Origin: Pelosinus propionicus DSM 13327 | GTDB taxonomy: Bacteria; Bacillota; Negativicutes; DSM-13327 | Assembly (NCBI RefSeq): GCF_900114615.1 | Contig: NZ_FOTS01000006.1 | Span: 62,001 to 126,000 of the forward strand | Direction: 5' to 3' | Length of the DNA: 64,000 nt | The notes under the pieces: model-generated | The model's database searches: none | Told to the model about the DNA's origin: nothing | What the model saw: the letters and a program-made list of their open reading frames with translations, nothing else | Shown here: positions 30,587-62,125 of the stretch, piece by piece | Numbering within the stretch: the first letter of the stretch is position 1 | How the letters are laid out: the number at the start of each line of letters is the position of its first letter | Program-made: the position numbers and the translations under genes

Positions 30587-30613
30587 AATTTAATAATTAC
30601 AATGTAATTACAT

Positions 30614-30692
30614 TCGCAACCTGGCAGTCATAGACAATTCCTTAGACCCACGGCTTTGCGTCCTTACCTTTCGATAAGTTTGCCCAATATTA
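30614..30692 (-). promoter_or_regulatory. c-di-GMP-I (GEMM-I) riboswitch upstream of the GGDEF-EAL gene
   Basis: On the minus strand the conserved GEMM-I pieces occur in order: GGGCAAACTTAT, CGAAAG tetraloop, GTAAGGACGCAAAGCC, GTGGGTCTAA and TGACTGCCAGGTTGC. These match the aptamer core, GAAA tetraloop and receptor of this class. A TATAAT-like -10 lies just upstream (about 30710). The output is a terminator at 30553-30586 or ribosome access. The regulated gene is 150 bp downstream. Confidence 0.9.
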
Positions 30693-30814
30693 ACTTTGAA
30701 ATTTTTGTCAAATTATACATATAATTGTATTGCCTTCTTAATAGTAAGTCAAGTAAAACTTAAGGACTAAAGTCCTCCGAGCAAGGATCTTTTTAAATGC
30801 CCCTTAGAAATCTT

Positions 30815-35781: not shown

Positions 35782-35831
35782 AAAAAACTGCCAGGTTCAT
35801 CAAGTAATTGTTTACTGATGCAACCTGGCAG
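35782..35831 (-). terminator. Switchable terminator of the second c-di-GMP riboswitch
   Basis: On the minus strand CTGCCAGGTTGCATCA pairs with TGATGAACCTGGCAG, followed by TTTTTTG. Its 5' arm is the 3' end of the aptamer, so ligand binding and termination exclude each other. This predicts that c-di-GMP turns the operon on. Confidence 0.85.
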
Positions 35832-35895
35832 TCATTGATGCGACATCATTAGACCCATAGTTTTGCGTCCTTATTTTTCAATAAGTTTGCCAATA
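35818..35895 (-). promoter_or_regulatory. c-di-GMP-I (GEMM-I) riboswitch upstream of small peptides
   Basis: On the minus strand it has TTGGCAAACTTATTGAAA, AATAAGGACGCAAAAC, TATGGGTCTAA and TGACTGCCAGGTTGC in order, the same core as the aptamer at 30614-30692. The G in GGACGCAAA and the GAAA tetraloop are kept. It lies 150 bp after the stop of the PAS/PucR-type gene and before the two peptide genes. Confidence 0.9.
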
Positions 35896-36037
35896 AGATT
35901 CAATTTTATTCAAGTATACTATACTCATTCAAGAAATTCCATTATCCTTTGCATATAATACATCTTATCAAAATTCTCTGTTTATTATCTTCAAAAGATA
36001 AATAATTTCAATTTATTATTTCCGTTTCTTTCATAGA

Positions 36038-56484: not shown

Positions 56485-57783
56485 TTATGGCTGAGTCCCA
56501 CTCGTAAATAGGGGCTTCCCTACCGCTTTTTCTAAATTAGCTACCGCTTTTTCATAATTAACGCGGGCTTTATAGTAATCCAATCTCACATTACGGAGAG
56601 CATTTAGACTATCCAGGACAGCCATGAAATCCACTTTGCCGTTGGTATAGCTCACGACTCCGGCCTGGTAGGTTTGTTCCGCTTGGGGAATTACGGTATT
56701 CTTATACAGGTCGATCTGACGCCAAGCTGACTGCGCTTCGGTCAATGCCATCTGCAAGTCCAGATCAGTCATATTTTGCATATTGCTCAATGAAGCCTGA
56801 GCTGCACCCAAGCTAGCCTCAGCAGATTTAATTTCTGCTTTATTTTTCCCCTGCCAAATAGGCAGCATAACCATAACTTCCATTTTCCAGGTATCAGGTG
56901 TCGTATCCATCATCGTTTGTTTTCTATCCTTGTAGCCAATGCTGAATTGATAATCTGGTAACTGCTGTTTCTTCGCCAATTCCACACCGTTCTTCGCCAT
57001 CTCCACTTGCCGTTCCATACCTACAACAGCTGGTTTACCAGCTTGCGCTTCTGTTTGCAATTTTGTTAAATCAAAATCAGGAGGCGGCGCGCTGAACTCT
57101 TCTTTCACCGCCAGGGGTGTATCGGCAGTACGGCCAAGGACAGTATTAACTTTGGCCTGGGCTACTGCCGCCATCGAAGCCATGCTTAAGAGATCAGTAG
57201 TCATTTTTGAAAACTCAGTTTGCGCTCGCAAGGCATCTTGCAGAGGTACCATTCCAGTGGAATAGTTAACCTGAGCAATCTGCACCAGCTGGCCCATGAG
57301 CTGCTGATTTTCCTTGCCGATTTCCAGGGCTTTATCAGCATAGAGCAAATCATAATAGGCAGTTTTCGCCGCAGCATAGGCTTCCATCTGCTTATCTTGA
57401 TAATTCGCTTTCGTCATTGCAGCATCACTGCCAGCCATTTTACCCATGGCTTTCAATTTAGACGGATTCATAATGTCCTGGGTAAACGTGTATTCCGTCA
57501 TCATTGCATCAAAAGGATTTAAGCTGCTCTTAGGTATATCATCTTTCATAATCCCAAATTGAGGATTTGCCCAGGCTTTTGCCAGGGGAATGCGAGCCTC
57601 TTTTTCTTCCCAGCGTTTTTGACTCTCAATGACGGCTGGATTATTCTTGACGGCAGTATCCACTATCTCTTTTAAAGATAGAGTCTCCTGGGCTTGTTCC
57701 GCCATAACTGGTATTATAAATCCCAATACGAGCATAGCAGTCAATGATAATACTTTGCATCGAAACCATCTTCCTACGTTCAT
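56485..57783 (-). CDS. TolC-family outer membrane efflux protein
   Basis: 432 residues. Signal peptide (MNVGRWFRCKVLSLTAML), then two outer-membrane-factor repeats with long helices (KAYAAAKTAYYDLLYADKAL in part and RLDYYKARVNYEKAVANLEK). TolC forms the exit duct through the outer membrane, so the cell must be diderm. It heads the tripartite pump genes 29 bp before cusB. Confidence 0.9.
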   Translation of the reverse strand: MNVGRWFRCKVLSLTAMLVLGFIIPVMAEQAQETLSLKEIVDTAVKNNPAVIESQKRWEEKEARIPLAKAWANPQFGIMKDDIPKSSLNPFDAMMTEYTFTQDIMNPSKLKAMGKMAGSDAAMTKANYQDKQMEAYAAAKTAYYDLLYADKALEIGKENQQLMGQLVQIAQVNYSTGMVPLQDALRAQTEFSKMTTDLLSMASMAAVAQAKVNTVLGRTADTPLAVKEEFSAPPPDFDLTKLQTEAQAGKPAVVGMERQVEMAKNGVELAKKQQLPDYQFSIGYKDRKQTMMDTTPDTWKMEVMVMLPIWQGKNKAEIKSAEASLGAAQASLSNMQNMTDLDLQMALTEAQSAWRQIDLYKNTVIPQAEQTYQAGVVSYTNGKVDFMAVLDSLNALRNVRLDYYKARVNYEKAVANLEKAVGKPLFTSGTQP

Positions 57784-57830
57784 ATATCCCCCTTCGTCCC
57801 CTTATTGAAGACAATTATGTTGGTTTATCC

Positions 57831-57926
57831 TCATTCTTCTTTAGCGATTAGCCCCTCCGTTCGATTTGTAAGATAGCACCATAAATACCCCATCACTGCC
57901 AATTGGATTATAAGTAAGCCCCACAT
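57831..57926 (-). CDS. Putative 31-aa membrane peptide heading the efflux operon
   Basis: From ATG 57926 the frame reads MWGLLIIQLAVMGYLWCYL then TNRTEGLIAKEE. GAGGTG lies seven bases upstream. One hydrophobic helix with aromatic and Met residues, then a polar tail. It lies between the 11-bp-repeat operator and tolC, so it should be on the same transcript. I know no family for it. Confidence 0.55.
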   Translation of the reverse strand: MWGLLIIQLAVMGYLWCYLTNRTEGLIAKEE

Positions 57927-57979
57927 TGTGTTTCACCTCGATTGATCTTTATATTGATGTCTATCATATCCAACTAATA

Positions 57980-58012
57980 TGAAGATTTTGTGAAGAAAGT
58001 TTGAAGAACTTA
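57980..58012. promoter_or_regulatory. 11-bp-period direct-repeat operator of the tolC-cusBA operon
   Basis: TGAAGA occurs at 57980, 57991 and 58002, exactly 11 bp apart. It is typical of OmpR-family regulator sites. It lies about 55-85 bp before the small membrane ORF. Related arrays occur at 58492, 59993, 60318 and 62908. Confidence 0.7.
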
Positions 58013-58060
58013 TGTTATTTTTATTTCATAACTACTTGGTACTCTCTCCTCATTCATTGT

Positions 58061-58091
58061 TATAAAAACAGCCCTTCCTAATGGAAAGGCT
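58061..58091 (-). terminator. Terminator of the small His-rich gene
   Basis: GCAGCCTTTCC and GGAAGGGCTG form a stem followed by TTTTTA on the minus strand, right after the gene at 58101. Confidence 0.8.
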
Positions 58092-58100
58092 GCATTGCTA

Positions 58101-58283
58101 TTACATATGATGACCTGAATGCTCATTACCGCTATCTTTCGGGGCATCCTCCGGCGGTGCTGGCTGCTCTTGATTTGTTGGTTCAGCAGCAAACGCCTTG
58201 GTGGCGTTTGGCAGCAAAGCTGTACCCGATATAAACACCGCTGCCAAAGCAGCAAAGATCATTCGCGTTACTTTTTTATTCAT
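58101..58283 (-). CDS. Small secreted His-rich protein
   Basis: 60 residues. Signal peptide (MIFAALAAVFISGTALLP region) with cleavage near FAAEP, then a Pro/Glu-rich tail ending in GNEHSGHHM, a metal-binding-like cluster. AGGAGAG lies eight bases before the ATG at 58283. It has its own operator array at 58492-58530 and terminator, so it is a separate unit. Likely a periplasmic Cu/Ag buffer; inference. Confidence 0.65.
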   Translation of the reverse strand: MNKKVTRMIFAALAAVFISGTALLPNATKAFAAEPTNQEQPAPPEDAPKDSGNEHSGHHM

Positions 58284-58530: not shown

Positions 58531-58634
58531 TTTCTTTTCATCGTCTACGTATGCTAAAAACGTCATCTCTCACCAACTAGTGGAAAAACAAATAATTGCA
58601 TGATCTAAAATTGGCTTTAAAAACGGGTATACAA

Positions 58635-58661
58635 AAATAGAGGAAGCTTCTTCCTCTATTT
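58635..58661. other. Perfect 11-bp hairpin
   Basis: AAATAGAGGAA and TTCCTCTATTT form a stem around GCTTC. A short T-run follows on the minus strand. No clear gene ends here, so its purpose is unknown. The rest of 58302-58745 shows only the operator array. Confidence 0.4.
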
Positions 58662-58745
58662 CCGAGTTTTACGATAAACCTGAAGGTTTTTTATTGCAGC
58701 ATAACATAATTAGAATTTTAGGGACTTCTTCCACTCTATTTTAGC

Positions 58746-58773
58746 TTGCAATCTCTATAAAATATACTATAAT
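58746..58773 (+). promoter_or_regulatory. Promoter of the non-coding RNA
   Basis: TTGCAA at 58746-58751 and TATAAT at 58768-58773 are separated by 16 bp, a strong sigma-70-type promoter. The transcript should start near 58781. Confidence 0.7.
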
Positions 58774-58780
58774 TAGAAAT

Positions 58781-59039
58781 AGGTGGAAATTAAAAAAGTC
58801 GCCGTGTCCTGAGAGTGTTAGAGCACTCCCAGGCACGAGCAGGTGTGGTAGCACCTACACGTAACAGCTAGCTGTCTACGACGACAATTTATTATACCGT
58901 GATCTTTCCTTGAAAACAAGGGATGCAAGATTCGGAATAGTAAAATTGTGGGTTTTGGCAGAGGCTTAGCGTCTGCGCGCAGTCAAGACGAAGCAAAGCG
59001 CATGTGTAGGTTGAAAAGACCTCGCATATGCGTTTTTTT
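58781..59039 (+). ncRNA. Structured non-coding RNA of about 260 nt
   Basis: A promoter precedes it and a terminator ends it (CGCATGTG pairing with CATATGCG, then TTTTTTT). There is no plausible ORF. An outer stem (GTCG at 58798, CGAC at 58882) encloses CCTGAGAGTG...CACTCCCAGG, AGGTGTGG...CACCTACAC (a possible pseudoknot) and the palindrome ACAGCTAGCTGT. A second hairpin GCAGAGGC / GCGTCTGC follows at about 58958. Size and layout suggest a conserved RNA; raiA-motif is my first guess and HEARO/omega-RNA the second. Neither can be confirmed without a covariance search. Confidence 0.6.
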
Positions 59040-59066
59040 AATTTCCCCTGAAACAAACTGTATGCT

Positions 59067-59102
59067 GGTTTCTTCTATCCTGAGCTGTGGATAGAAGAAA
59101 CC
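59067..59102. other. Perfect 14-bp hairpin after the non-coding RNA
   Basis: GGTTTCTTCTATCC and GGATAGAAGAAACC pair exactly around TGAGCTGT. No T-run follows. It may be part of a second structured RNA or a binding site. The 59103-59265 gap holds only a short unlikely ORF (see rejected list) and another GTGGCG/CGCCAC hairpin. Confidence 0.45.
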
Positions 59103-59265
59103 TCCTGCAGGATGAAGATGGGGGGATATAAATTGGTAGCAATCCAAGGTAAGAAAAAAGTATGCAGTTGGGGCAAAAGCACCGCACCAGCACGTGGCGG
59201 GGACTCCTCCTCGCCACATTTACGAAGCACAAGACTCGATTCCTGGGAAAACGAGGATAGTGTAA

Positions 59266-59535
59266 ATGTACAGAACCTATAGGACAACGAAAGACACGAT
59301 TATGGGTGAGGAAACAGAGAACGCCGACGTTACACTTAAATTGATTACAGATTTGGATGGGAAAGAATATGTGATAGTCAAGAAGCAAAAAGAAGATGCG
59401 ATCTATCATCTTTCGCTGGTTGGAAAAGTCACTGAAATCGTTCACGAAATTTCATTCGAAGAATATAGAAACATTACTTATGCGAGATTAGACAATGAAT
59501 TGTTAGAACAAGGAATCAAACCCAAGAGACGGTAA
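59266..59535 (+). CDS. Hypothetical protein (89 aa)
   Basis: The frame starts at ATG 59266 with GAGGA eight bases upstream; an internal ATG at 59302 is an alternative start. It reads MYRTYRTTKDTIMGEETENA, then LKLITDLDGKEYVIVKKQ, and ends KPKRR. Mixed charge, no membrane segment, no motif I recognise. It is the only plus-strand gene of this region and has a terminator at 59614-59660. Confidence 0.5.
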   Translation: MYRTYRTTKDTIMGEETENADVTLKLITDLDGKEYVIVKKQKEDAIYHLSLVGKVTEIVHEISFEEYRNITYARLDNELLEQGIKPKRR

Positions 59536-59613
59536 AACAAATGGTGTAAAGTGTTCGAACATTTGATGTTAAAGAACAATTTAATATACATGGGAAGAAA
59601 CTACGCACATTAT

Positions 59614-59660
59614 AAAAACCTGTCTCTCATACTTTTGTATTTTGAGACAGGTCCTTTTTT
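59614..59660. terminator. Bidirectional terminator
   Basis: AAAACCTGTCTC and GAGACAGGT pair with A/T runs at both ends. It separates the plus-strand hypothetical gene from the minus-strand DUF2680-like gene. Confidence 0.85.
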
Positions 59661-59665
59661 CCACA

Positions 59666-59944
59666 TTACTTGGTGTTATTGTTATTGCAAATTCCCATCG
59701 TACCGCCATTTTGCATCATTTTTTGCATGACAGGAGCCATTTGCTGCATATGCTCATTCATCTGAGCCGCTTGCTCGGTAGTGATAGTGCCATTGTCCAC
59801 TGCCTGCTGCATCATTTGCTGATGATTTTGAGACATTTGATTGAACCAATCATTTTGTGCCTGAGTCTGATCAGTAGTTGCGGCAAATACGGGCACAGCC
59901 ATCAGAGCTGCTAACATCGTAAACATAATAATTTTCTTTTTCAT
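59666..59944 (-). CDS. Small exported DUF2680-like protein, paralogue 2
   Basis: 92 residues. Signal peptide MKKKIIMFTMLAALMAVPV(FA), then QMSQNHQQMMQQAVDNG, TEQAAQMNEHMQQMAPVM and QKMMQNGG. It is strikingly Met-rich and shares its plan with the gene at 49298-49576. Its promoter has an 11-bp-period array (59993-60030). Its Met clusters may bind Cu or Ag outside the cytoplasm; inference. Confidence 0.7.
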   Translation of the reverse strand: MKKKIIMFTMLAALMAVPVFAATTDQTQAQNDWFNQMSQNHQQMMQQAVDNGTITTEQAAQMNEHMQQMAPVMQKMMQNGGTMGICNNNNTK

Positions 59945-59992
59945 AGGGTTTCCCTCCTGCTTTTTATTTATTTTTATTGTATCCCATCATTG

Positions 59993-60030
59993 TGGAGAAA
60001 TGATGGAGCCTTTGTGGAAAATTTGTGTTT
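59993..60030. promoter_or_regulatory. 11-bp-period operator of the DUF2680-like gene
   Basis: TGGAGA, TGGAGC, TGGAAA and TGTTT start at 59993, 60004, 60015 and 60026. The period matches the TGAAGA arrays, with G for the fourth-position A, so the same or a related regulator may bind. Confidence 0.6.
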
Positions 60031-60271
60031 ATTCCATCTCTTTTTTCATACGCTGATACTCATCAGTAGTAATTTCCCCTTTGGCATACCGCTGTTTTAA
60101 TATCTCCAAAGCGTCAATCCGAAGCTCATTTTGGCTGCCACCACGGAATAACGCCTTAAATAGCCAGGCTGCCGCCATAATAACAAGAGCGGTAAACGCC
60201 AAATGAACAAGTATCCCCAGGATCATGCCCAGCCAACCGAAGGGTCCGCCGAAGCCATACCCCATCATCAT
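60029..60271 (-). CDS. SHOCT-domain small membrane protein
   Basis: 80 residues. Gly-rich start GYGFGGPFGWLGMILG leads to one membrane helix (LAFTALVIMAAAWLFKAL), then the SHOCT motif DALEILKQRYAKGEITTDEYQRMK, given in two parts: DALEILKQRYAKGE and ITTDEYQRMK. Often adjacent to signalling or transport genes. It is preceded by the operator at 60318-60345. Confidence 0.8.
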   Translation of the reverse strand: MMMGYGFGGPFGWLGMILGILVHLAFTALVIMAAAWLFKALFRGGSQNELRIDALEILKQRYAKGEITTDEYQRMKKEME

Positions 60272-60317
60272 AGTTCATATACCTCCTTTGTGTTAAGCCT
60301 AGTATAGCCTAACATTG

Positions 60318-60345
60318 TGGAGATTTTATGGAGAAACTGTGGGTT
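60318..60345. promoter_or_regulatory. 11-bp-period operator of the SHOCT gene
   Basis: TGGAGA at 60318 and 60329 and TGGG at 60340 keep the 11-bp period. It lies between the sensor kinase stop and the SHOCT gene, about 50-75 bp before the latter. Confidence 0.55.
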
Positions 60346-60346
60346 T

Positions 60347-61456
60347 TTAATGTAGATCAATCGGCAGCAGGACGCTGAAGGTACTGCCCTGGCCTAACGT
60401 ACTTTCAGCCTTGATCTTACCGCCATGGACCAAAGCCATTTGCTTGACAAGGGCTAGACCTAAGCCAGTACCGCCGCTTGCTTTGGTCCTAGCCGGGTCA
60501 ACACGGTAAAAATAATCAAAAACATGTTCAAGATCTTCCACTGCAATTCCAATTCCGGTATCAGTAACCGCAATTTTAATCATGTCATTTTCAGCAGCTG
60601 CCCTTACGCTAATCTGTCCACCGTCAGAAGTATATTTGATGGCATTTAAGACAAGATTGTACACCATTTGGTTAACCATATCCCCATCCGCCCAAATCAA
60701 TGGCAGCCGATCCTCTGTTTCTATACGCAGGCTGATGCATTTTTCACCAGCAAGAGGCTTACTTTTCCCTACAATCTCACGCAGTAGTTGGGCTACGTCT
60801 AATAGAGTGAATTCTGCCTGTAGTTGCCCTGCCTCTAATAAAGAAAGATCTCTAAGTTCTCCGACCAGCTTGGTTAGCCGATCAACTTCTTCAGTCAGCG
60901 AACTCATTTGCTCTACGTTCGGAGTAATGACACCATCTGCGATGCCTTCCAGATTAGCCTTCAGTATTGTCAGCGGTGTTCTAAGTTCGTGAGCTATCCC
61001 AGCCAAAAAGCGTTGGCGCAAGACAGTATTGGATTTTAATTTGACAGTCATGGCGTTAAACGCCATGGCTAATTGCCCCACTTCGTCTTGCCTTTCCACA
61101 CTAACGGCAGCATCCAAGTTTCCTGCTGCCACTGCATTGACTGCTCGGTTCAAGTCAATCACCGGAGTCGCAATATTGCGGGCCAAATAATAGCTAACGC
61201 CAGCTCCAATTAGCAGCATCCCCCCTGCAGCCAATAGTAAAGACTGCTTTAACGATATCATAAACTGCTTTTCTGGTGATCCCATCATAGAAGCCATATT
61301 GCCATGATTCATCATCATGCCATGCATGCCGCTCATATATAAATACGAATTAAAATTTTCGGATACCTGATAGTTGACGACCAGGATAAGTCCCACAATA
61401 ACAGCAACCGTTGTTACAAAGAAAGTGACCATTACCCGAATCAGAAGACTACCCAC
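60347..61456 (-). CDS. Sensor histidine kinase of the Cu/Ag locus
   Basis: 369 residues from GTG 61456 (GGGTGA five bases upstream). Two membrane helices flank an external loop with Met/His (MSGMHGMMMNHGNMASMMG), which likely binds metal. HAMP (about 110-165), dimerisation domain with phospho-His in FLAGIAHELRTPLTILK, then ATPase motifs NLVLNAIKYT, DTGIGI, GGTGLGLALVKQ follow. It should phosphorylate the response regulator, whose gene is frameshifted. Confidence 0.85.
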   Translation of the reverse strand: MGSLLIRVMVTFFVTTVAVIVGLILVVNYQVSENFNSYLYMSGMHGMMMNHGNMASMMGSPEKQFMISLKQSLLLAAGGMLLIGAGVSYYLARNIATPVIDLNRAVNAVAAGNLDAAVSVERQDEVGQLAMAFNAMTVKLKSNTVLRQRFLAGIAHELRTPLTILKANLEGIADGVITPNVEQMSSLTEEVDRLTKLVGELRDLSLLEAGQLQAEFTLLDVAQLLREIVGKSKPLAGEKCISLRIETEDRLPLIWADGDMVNQMVYNLVLNAIKYTSDGGQISVRAAAENDMIKIAVTDTGIGIAVEDLEHVFDYFYRVDPARTKASGGTGLGLALVKQMALVHGGKIKAESTLGQGSTFSVLLPIDLH

Positions 61457-62125
61457 AGGAATCACCCGCCAGCTTATAACCAACACCATAAACAGTTTTG
61501 ATATAACGAGGTTCACCATAGGAATCGCCAAGCTTTTTGCGAAGGTTTTTAATATGAGAATCAACCGTACGTTCATAGCCTTCAAAAGCATAGCCTTGTA
61601 CTTTCTCAATTAACTGCAGCCGAGACAAGACTTGACCAGGATGGGTCAAAAACAGTTCCAGCAGTTTATACTCGGTAGGTGTCAACTCGACAGGGTTACC
61701 TTGCACTATTAAGGTGCGGTTATGCGGATGTAATGCTATTTCTCCAACAGACAGTACATTTAAAGCTTTGTCTCGCCGCCCCTCAGGCTTAACCCGCCTA
61801 AGGATAGCTCCCGAGGACTAAAAGGCTTTGCTACATAGTCATCAGCCCCGATTTCCAGCCCAATGACCCGATCAGTCTCAGCATCCCGCGCAGTGAGCAT
61901 AATAATCGGCACATCGCTATCTCGCCGAATTTCCTTGCATACTTCCCAGCCATCTAGTTCTGGCAGCATCACATCCAGCAATACCACATCAGGCTCCCAT
62001 TGCCGTACCTTCTTCACTGCATTCCTGCCATCCATAGCTGTTTCTATCATATAGCCCTCTTTTCTCAGATAGGTTACCAGCACTTTTACAATTTTCTCAT
62101 CATCATCCACTACTAACACCTTCAT
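61449..62125 (-). pseudogene. Frameshifted OmpR-family response regulator
   Basis: The receiver (62125 down to about 61800) is intact with DVMLPELDGWEVC and KPFSPREL. A frame change follows, giving a false ending LGGLSLRGGETKL. The other frame resumes AILRRVKPEGRRDK and continues into an intact wHTH (LTPTEYKLLELFL, VDSHIKNLRKKLGD, YGVGYKL). About 19 nt and part of the linker are missing, apparently lost between two AGCT repeats. The full gene would be ~231 aa. It overlaps the kinase start. Confidence 0.8.

Follow-up and report, generated by a model that had tools for sequence, protein, structure and literature searches.

What does a stretch of the Pelosinus propionicus DSM 13327 genome encode when it runs from a promoter to a terminator with no gene apparent between them? 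This region (58746-59102 of the window, the window being the whole 64,000 nucleotides of DNA analysed here) was taken by the initial annotation for a free-standing non-coding RNA of conserved structure, perhaps a raiA-motif or HEARO-like RNA. Its sequence elements are present as described: a promoter composed of TTGCAA (58746-58751), 16 nt and TATAAT (58768-58773), an RNA region with no ORF longer than 54 aa, a GTCG/CGAC stem with nested hairpins, a terminator stem (58998-59032) followed by seven T (59033-59039), and a perfect 14-bp hairpin (59067-59080/59089-59102). The plus-strand RNA predicted for 58780-59042 has a folding energy of -100.5 kcal/mol (z = -6.9, 0/200 shuffles as good), and conservation in relatives, which had been suggested as a check, is evident from matches to a 371-bp block in 20 of 60 related genomes, most of them with several copies. 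Beyond the initial annotation, the region proved to be multicopy, to continue into a small ORF, to have a conserved 5′ fold that is better explained on the minus strand, and to contain two hypervariable loops.

The suggested family assignments did not hold. Size and a multi-helix fold are all that speak for a raiA or HEARO RNA, whereas neither has an Rfam match in the region at the gathering score or with E up to 10, the searches of both strands yielding chance matches only, and this identification is extremely improbable. The plasmid ctRNA families of Rfam gave no model match on either strand, and the RNA family is absent from Rfam and new. A cmscan of the whole window found only two c-di-GMP-I riboswitches, which are located elsewhere (30612-30694 and 35816-35901, minus strand) and score above the Rfam gathering threshold.

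The reading developed below, to which we assign a probability of about 0.7, is that the region belongs to a cassette that is a mobile chromosomal expression unit under cis-encoded antisense RNA control. In this reading the element comprises two overlapping opposed RNAs, a gene leader and a small antisense RNA, and not one non-coding RNA. Its features are listed in Table 1.

TABLE 1. Positions of observed and predicted features of the element in the window.
Feature	Position	Strand	Basis or remark
Whole insertion, with the sister species' orthologous site as reference	58590-59618	+	Flank alignment to G003
Alignable cassette between copies	~58717/58729 to 59532/59622	+	Copy-to-copy alignment
Sense promoter, TTGCAA-16-TATAAT	58746-58773	+	Score 10/12; TTGCA kept in 119/137 copies
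Sense leader RNA (attenuated product), predicted start ~58780	58780-59039	+	Ends inferred from promoter and terminator
GGAAATTAAAAAA	58785-58797	+	Reverse complement of sense-terminator tail (59033-59046); on the minus strand, antisense-terminator tail
Predicted antisense RNA, ~95 nt: closing stem, hairpins C, B and A, then U-run (58797-58792)	~58790-58886/58890	-	Fold, covariation, G-U pairs
Hypervariable loop A, TTAGAG here	58818-58823		58 distinct versions among 137-143 copies
Hypervariable loop B, TGGTAG here	58846-58851		About 96-98 distinct versions among 137-143 copies
Predicted antiterminator, left strand ACCTACACGT, 3′ arm of sense hairpin B	58853-58862	+	Pairs with 59002-59011 in nascent-leader MFE
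Antisense promoter: -10 TATAAT (58896-58891), 17 nt, -35 TTGTTT (58919-58914)	58891-58919	-	Conservation
Sense intrinsic terminator, stem then T7	58998-59039	+	Mean stem -23.4 kcal/mol over copies
Predicted antiterminator, right strand ATGTGTAGGT (terminator 5′ arm)	59002-59011	+	Complementarity across copies
Small-gene leader hairpin, perfect 14-bp stem, variable loop	59059-59110	+	Sequence, copy comparison
Short upstream reading frame, alternative TTG start 59133	59112-59282	+	Conserved start MxMGGYxL
Cargo ORF, 89 aa, MYRTYRTTKDTIMG (MYRTYRTT) family, 21 copies	59266-59535	+	ORF comparison between copies

A Cassette Present in Many Copies

Homology among copies of the element begins at the promoter and stops where a small ORF ends, and the flanks are dissimilar. 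In most copies this ORF is the next one downstream, at a steady distance, and the plus-strand RNA is best read as the leader of that gene, which replaces the free-standing RNA initially proposed. The steady distance also counts against a trans-acting small RNA, the loops of which would pair with other genes: hypervariable loops and the presence of separate promoters and terminators on both strands (see below) would suit such an RNA, but cognate pairing is automatic because both strands carry the same loops, and this explanation is very unlikely.

The window flanks at 56500-58201, 58532-58587, and 59657-61634 form one contiguous place in P. fermentans JBW45 (G003), where the orthologous site is empty, the segment from 58590 to ~59618 being absent and both sides aligning; gain in the window genome and loss in G003 are not distinguishable from this site. 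A bridge-RNA or guide-RNA element was considered and rejected, as the cassette has no transposase within it and its boundaries follow promoter to stop codon.

By sequence scan the element was found in Pelosinus, Sporomusa, Propionispira, Propionispora, Anaerospora, Massilibacillus, Desulfosporosinus, and MAGs, and in one viral contig, and a covariance-model search was positive for 30/300 genomes of the class and 3/398 of the phylum. Match counts per genome include weak opposite-strand echoes; counted by place, full copies number six in the window's own genome, eight in P. fermentans JBW45, and 13 in one complete relative (G082). Plasmid and phage record collections contained no match to the element. 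The viral-contig copy (IMG/VR contig, L135 5452-9413, the same copy as L019) is a SymE-like cassette in a prophage, between lysis genes (endolysin) and serine recombinases, and phages may therefore carry cassettes.

The Conserved 5′ Fold and the Minus Strand

The description of a conserved structured RNA stands as far as promoter, terminator, and fold are concerned; the covarying structure, however, lies on the opposite strand, and the comparison of copies indicates that the conserved 5′ fold is better explained there. The predicted antisense RNA folds at -45.9 kcal/mol (z = -6.1) into 33 bp in four helices, with a terminal U-run. In the minus-strand fold alignment, 98.3% of cells are standard pairs and eight pairs covary by double changes, giving a covariation score not reached by any of the 500 shuffles or by any slid version. 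Strand preference is most apparent from G-U pairs, which among 33 diverse copies occupy 135 minus-only cells versus five plus-only cells; in the GTCG...CGAC domain, A-C mismatches of the plus strand are G-U pairs on the minus strand. Minus-strand scores of model R1 are not independent evidence, because R1 was built on that strand.

The antisense promoter has the consensus CTTGT, 17-18 nt, GTATAAT. TATAAT is present in all 99 copies that were not selected for having it, and TTGT lies 17 or 18 nt from it in 133/137 copies; the 17-nt spacers come in 61 different sequences. The T-run that follows the closing stem is short in Sporomusa and a few others, where three T are followed by more T after a base or two. 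An antisense RNA gene of ~95 nt is thus very probable, and at the sequence level it overlaps the leader with its own promoter and terminator.

Alternative Structures of the Sense Leader

The region that had been noted as a possible pseudoknot is indeed one side of a conserved long-range pairing, the other side being the 5′ arm of the terminator. This 9-nt pairing of CCTACACGT in hairpin B with ATGTGTAGG in the terminator arm is perfect in 124 of the 127 copies scored (10/137 could not be scored), although the two strands lie 147-303 nt apart. Both strands are nearly invariant, and covariation cannot test this helix. In nascent leaders, before the 3′ arm of the terminator is added, the antiterminator pairing has a predicted probability of 0.70 on average (median 0.87), with poor predictions near 0 in copy L068 and of 0.12 in L070. 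In full-length leaders, the terminator reaches 0.95 with or without the antisense region blocked, and the switch must therefore be kinetic, since the full leader at equilibrium always prefers the terminator. Prediction thus provides the alternative antiterminator and terminator of an attenuator, together with an antisense RNA covering the antiterminator. Because the terminator tail CTTTTTAATTTCC is found on both strands, the two ends of the leader can pair as well.

The -10 of the sense promoter is weaker in Sporomusa copies, and two copies are interrupted at this promoter by group II introns. The loop of the 14-bp leader hairpin (window 59081-59088) is also highly variable among copies.

Hypervariable Loops A and B

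Taken together, loops A and B occur in 132 different combinations over 143 copies, a total that includes a few same-place echoes. When copies are compared whose downstream 350 bp have diverged by only 2.3% (1-3% class), loops A and B differ by 42% and 38%, respectively, and the stems between them by 2.0%. Random pairs differ by 51% in loop A and 47% in loop B, and the loops of close relatives are therefore nearly saturated. Even the same-site orthologs L069 and L086, with 96.4% identity over 7.3 kb, differ at seven of the nine loop B positions. The U-turn motif YUNR, which occurs in known antisense recognition loops, is enriched in the loops.

A riboswitch-like cis-regulatory leader, with an accidental minus-strand promoter and unconstrained loops, is distinctly unlikely in view of these data. 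It would account for the promoter, the large fold, the competing terminator and antiterminator, the complementary 5′ and 3′ tails, and possible anti-SD pairing, but not for strand-specific G-U pairs beside a complete, conserved minus-strand promoter, nor for loop turnover that far exceeds that of flanking spacer, promoter, and ORF, which lack of constraint would not give; the regulated genes, moreover, are mutually unrelated.

With antisense control as the preferred reading, loop hypervariability likely serves orthogonality, such that each copy would be controlled only by its own antisense RNA, and by analogy the pattern fits orthogonality of the incompatibility type. Loops decide the compatibility of ColE1 and IncK plasmids (PMC9458437, PMC10724649). 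pT181-type attenuators function with swapped recognition hairpins, and in engineered versions orthogonality is not dictated by loops alone, as stems matter too (PMC3753616). Within one genome, none of the 398 copy pairs shares both loops; as ~0.5 shared pairs are expected, this avoidance is not significant, and it was set aside as a statistical signal with too few events. Covariation gave no sign, beyond loop-internal constraint, that loops A and B kiss one another, the 14-bp leader hairpin, or any other part of the element.

One route by which a loop may diversify is inversion via its palindromic stem. Pairs of loops that are reverse complements of one another are somewhat over-represented for loop A (20 versus 12.6 expected, p 0.03) and loop B (8 versus 1.3, p 0.003), and copies that are closely related show no enrichment of such pairs (8 versus 7.3). 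Given this weak over-representation and the lack of enrichment among close copies, inversion was rejected as the main source of diversity. A further idea, that the copies represent a new class of dispersed chromosomal elements whose coexistence depends on RNA incompatibility typing and on active or strongly selected loop diversification, is tentative, and we lean against it.

Cargo Genes

DUF6809-like proteins are the cargo of 44 of the 138 copies. The MYRTYRTT family follows with 21 copies, a short coiled protein in Sporomusa with 16, and a SymE-like protein (PF08845, E about 1e-11) with 15. Simple motifs left the other 42 unsorted; these include further DUF6809-like relatives, small helical proteins, receiver domains of G634, and a few copies without an ORF in reach. 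Acidic proteins also occur. The 89-aa protein of the window has no notable match in Pfam, NCBIfam, PADLOC, or PHROGs, and its structural model is too poor for use (pLDDT 59); the helical model of the DUF6809-like protein has no match in the PDB. The plain reading is that the copies share one switch and that the small genes behind it are exchangeable.

A type I toxin-antitoxin family, in which the small proteins would be toxins and the antisense RNA the antitoxin, has to be weighed here. SymE is a type I toxin in E. coli, and the 15 SymE-like copies, the small cargo of a multicopy mobile element, and the prophage copy beside serine recombinases are in line with this explanation. Most cargo, however, is not toxin-like (DUF6809-like helical proteins, G634 receiver domains, acidic proteins), PADLOC yields nothing convincing, and the window protein is not a short hydrophobic peptide, as classical type I toxins are. 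Toxin-antitoxin stays a rival and not a finding, and an unlikely one.

In copies L188, L189, and L191 (Desulfosporosinus-like G634), the cargo consists of stand-alone response-regulator receiver domains. The MxMGGYxL frame is common to copies with different downstream genes; it overlaps the cargo ORF in the window and is fused to the cargo in other copies, and may represent either a leader peptide or a constraint on the RNA.

Proposed Mechanism and Relation to Known Systems

The promoter and fold of each RNA, the covariation, the strand, the complementarity of the antiterminator, the multicopy and mobile distribution, and loop hypervariability have been shown computationally; transcription, kissing, attenuation, and orthogonality are steps that we infer. 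The sense promoter would start a leader with two alternative folds. In the nascent leader, ACCUACACGU (58853-58862) would pair with the terminator 5′ arm (59002-59011), allowing polymerase to read on as far as the small gene. The antisense RNA (58886 to ~58790, minus strand) would contact the leader via its two hairpin loops, and the contact would spread into a duplex covering ACCUACACGU, upon which the terminator would form and the gene would be off. The loops would set which antisense RNA recognises which leader, and diverged loops would prevent mutual silencing of copies in one genome, as in plasmid incompatibility groups. Attenuation is the likely mode of control, and the element is probably a chromosomal antisense-RNA transcriptional attenuator of the pT181/pIP501 kind.

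As in pT181 (RNAI) and pIP501/pAMbeta1 (RNAIII), a cis-encoded antisense RNA with its own promoter and U-run would be directed against a leader that has a terminator and an upstream pre-emptor or antiterminator. Unlike those plasmid systems, the cassette is chromosomal, present in many copies per genome, and without a Rep protein; its antisense RNA has four helices, its cargo is interchangeable, and it has no Rfam family match. Control of a plasmid replication initiator is not indicated, as the places are chromosomal, no plasmid matches, and the cargo is not Rep. The element is in these respects a new variant of a known mechanism.

With ColE1 RNAI/RNAII and CopA-type control of IncFII and the I-complex, the cassette shares loops that vary between compatible replicons and stems that are kept; loop changes alter compatibility in those systems (PMC9458437, PMC10724649). 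It differs in that no replication origin was found in the cassette and that attenuation is proposed instead of primer control or control of rep translation. The E. coli loci symE/SymR, ibs/sib, and zorO/orzO likewise combine a chromosomal antisense RNA with a small protein in duplicated copies, and one cargo family is similar to SymE; in the cassette, by contrast, the predicted antisense RNA lies over the far 5′ part of the leader, ahead of the terminator, the cargo is mostly not toxin-like, and loops are hypervariable across >130 copies. T-box and other terminator-type leaders also choose between terminator and antiterminator and have one varying recognition element per copy, but there is no T-box match here and the proposed effector is an antisense RNA from the other strand.

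Plasmids provide the known examples of loop-coded antisense attenuators. Synthetic biology has put such regulators to use, and its bottleneck there is to obtain many without cross-talk. The cassettes amount to a natural set in which a single scaffold carries >130 sequence variants with known pairings, and one chromosome holds up to 13 of them. They also suggest that genes of the chromosome can come in regulatory cassettes that escape mutual silencing through rapid loop evolution, which opens the origin of orthogonal RNA pairs to direct testing.

Group II Introns Beside Cassettes

Retrotransposition, which 5′ truncation of copies had suggested, was rejected, since L036 and L038 are truncated by inserted group II introns instead. 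ORFs for group II intron reverse transcriptase and intron-like 5′ ends abut the cassettes L036, L038 (G003), and L039. The introns of L036 and L038 lie upstream of the cassette, against the sense start, and that of L039 (G000 contig 106) lies just after TTTTTAATTTC, the terminator tail, as if cassette terminators were targets of these introns.
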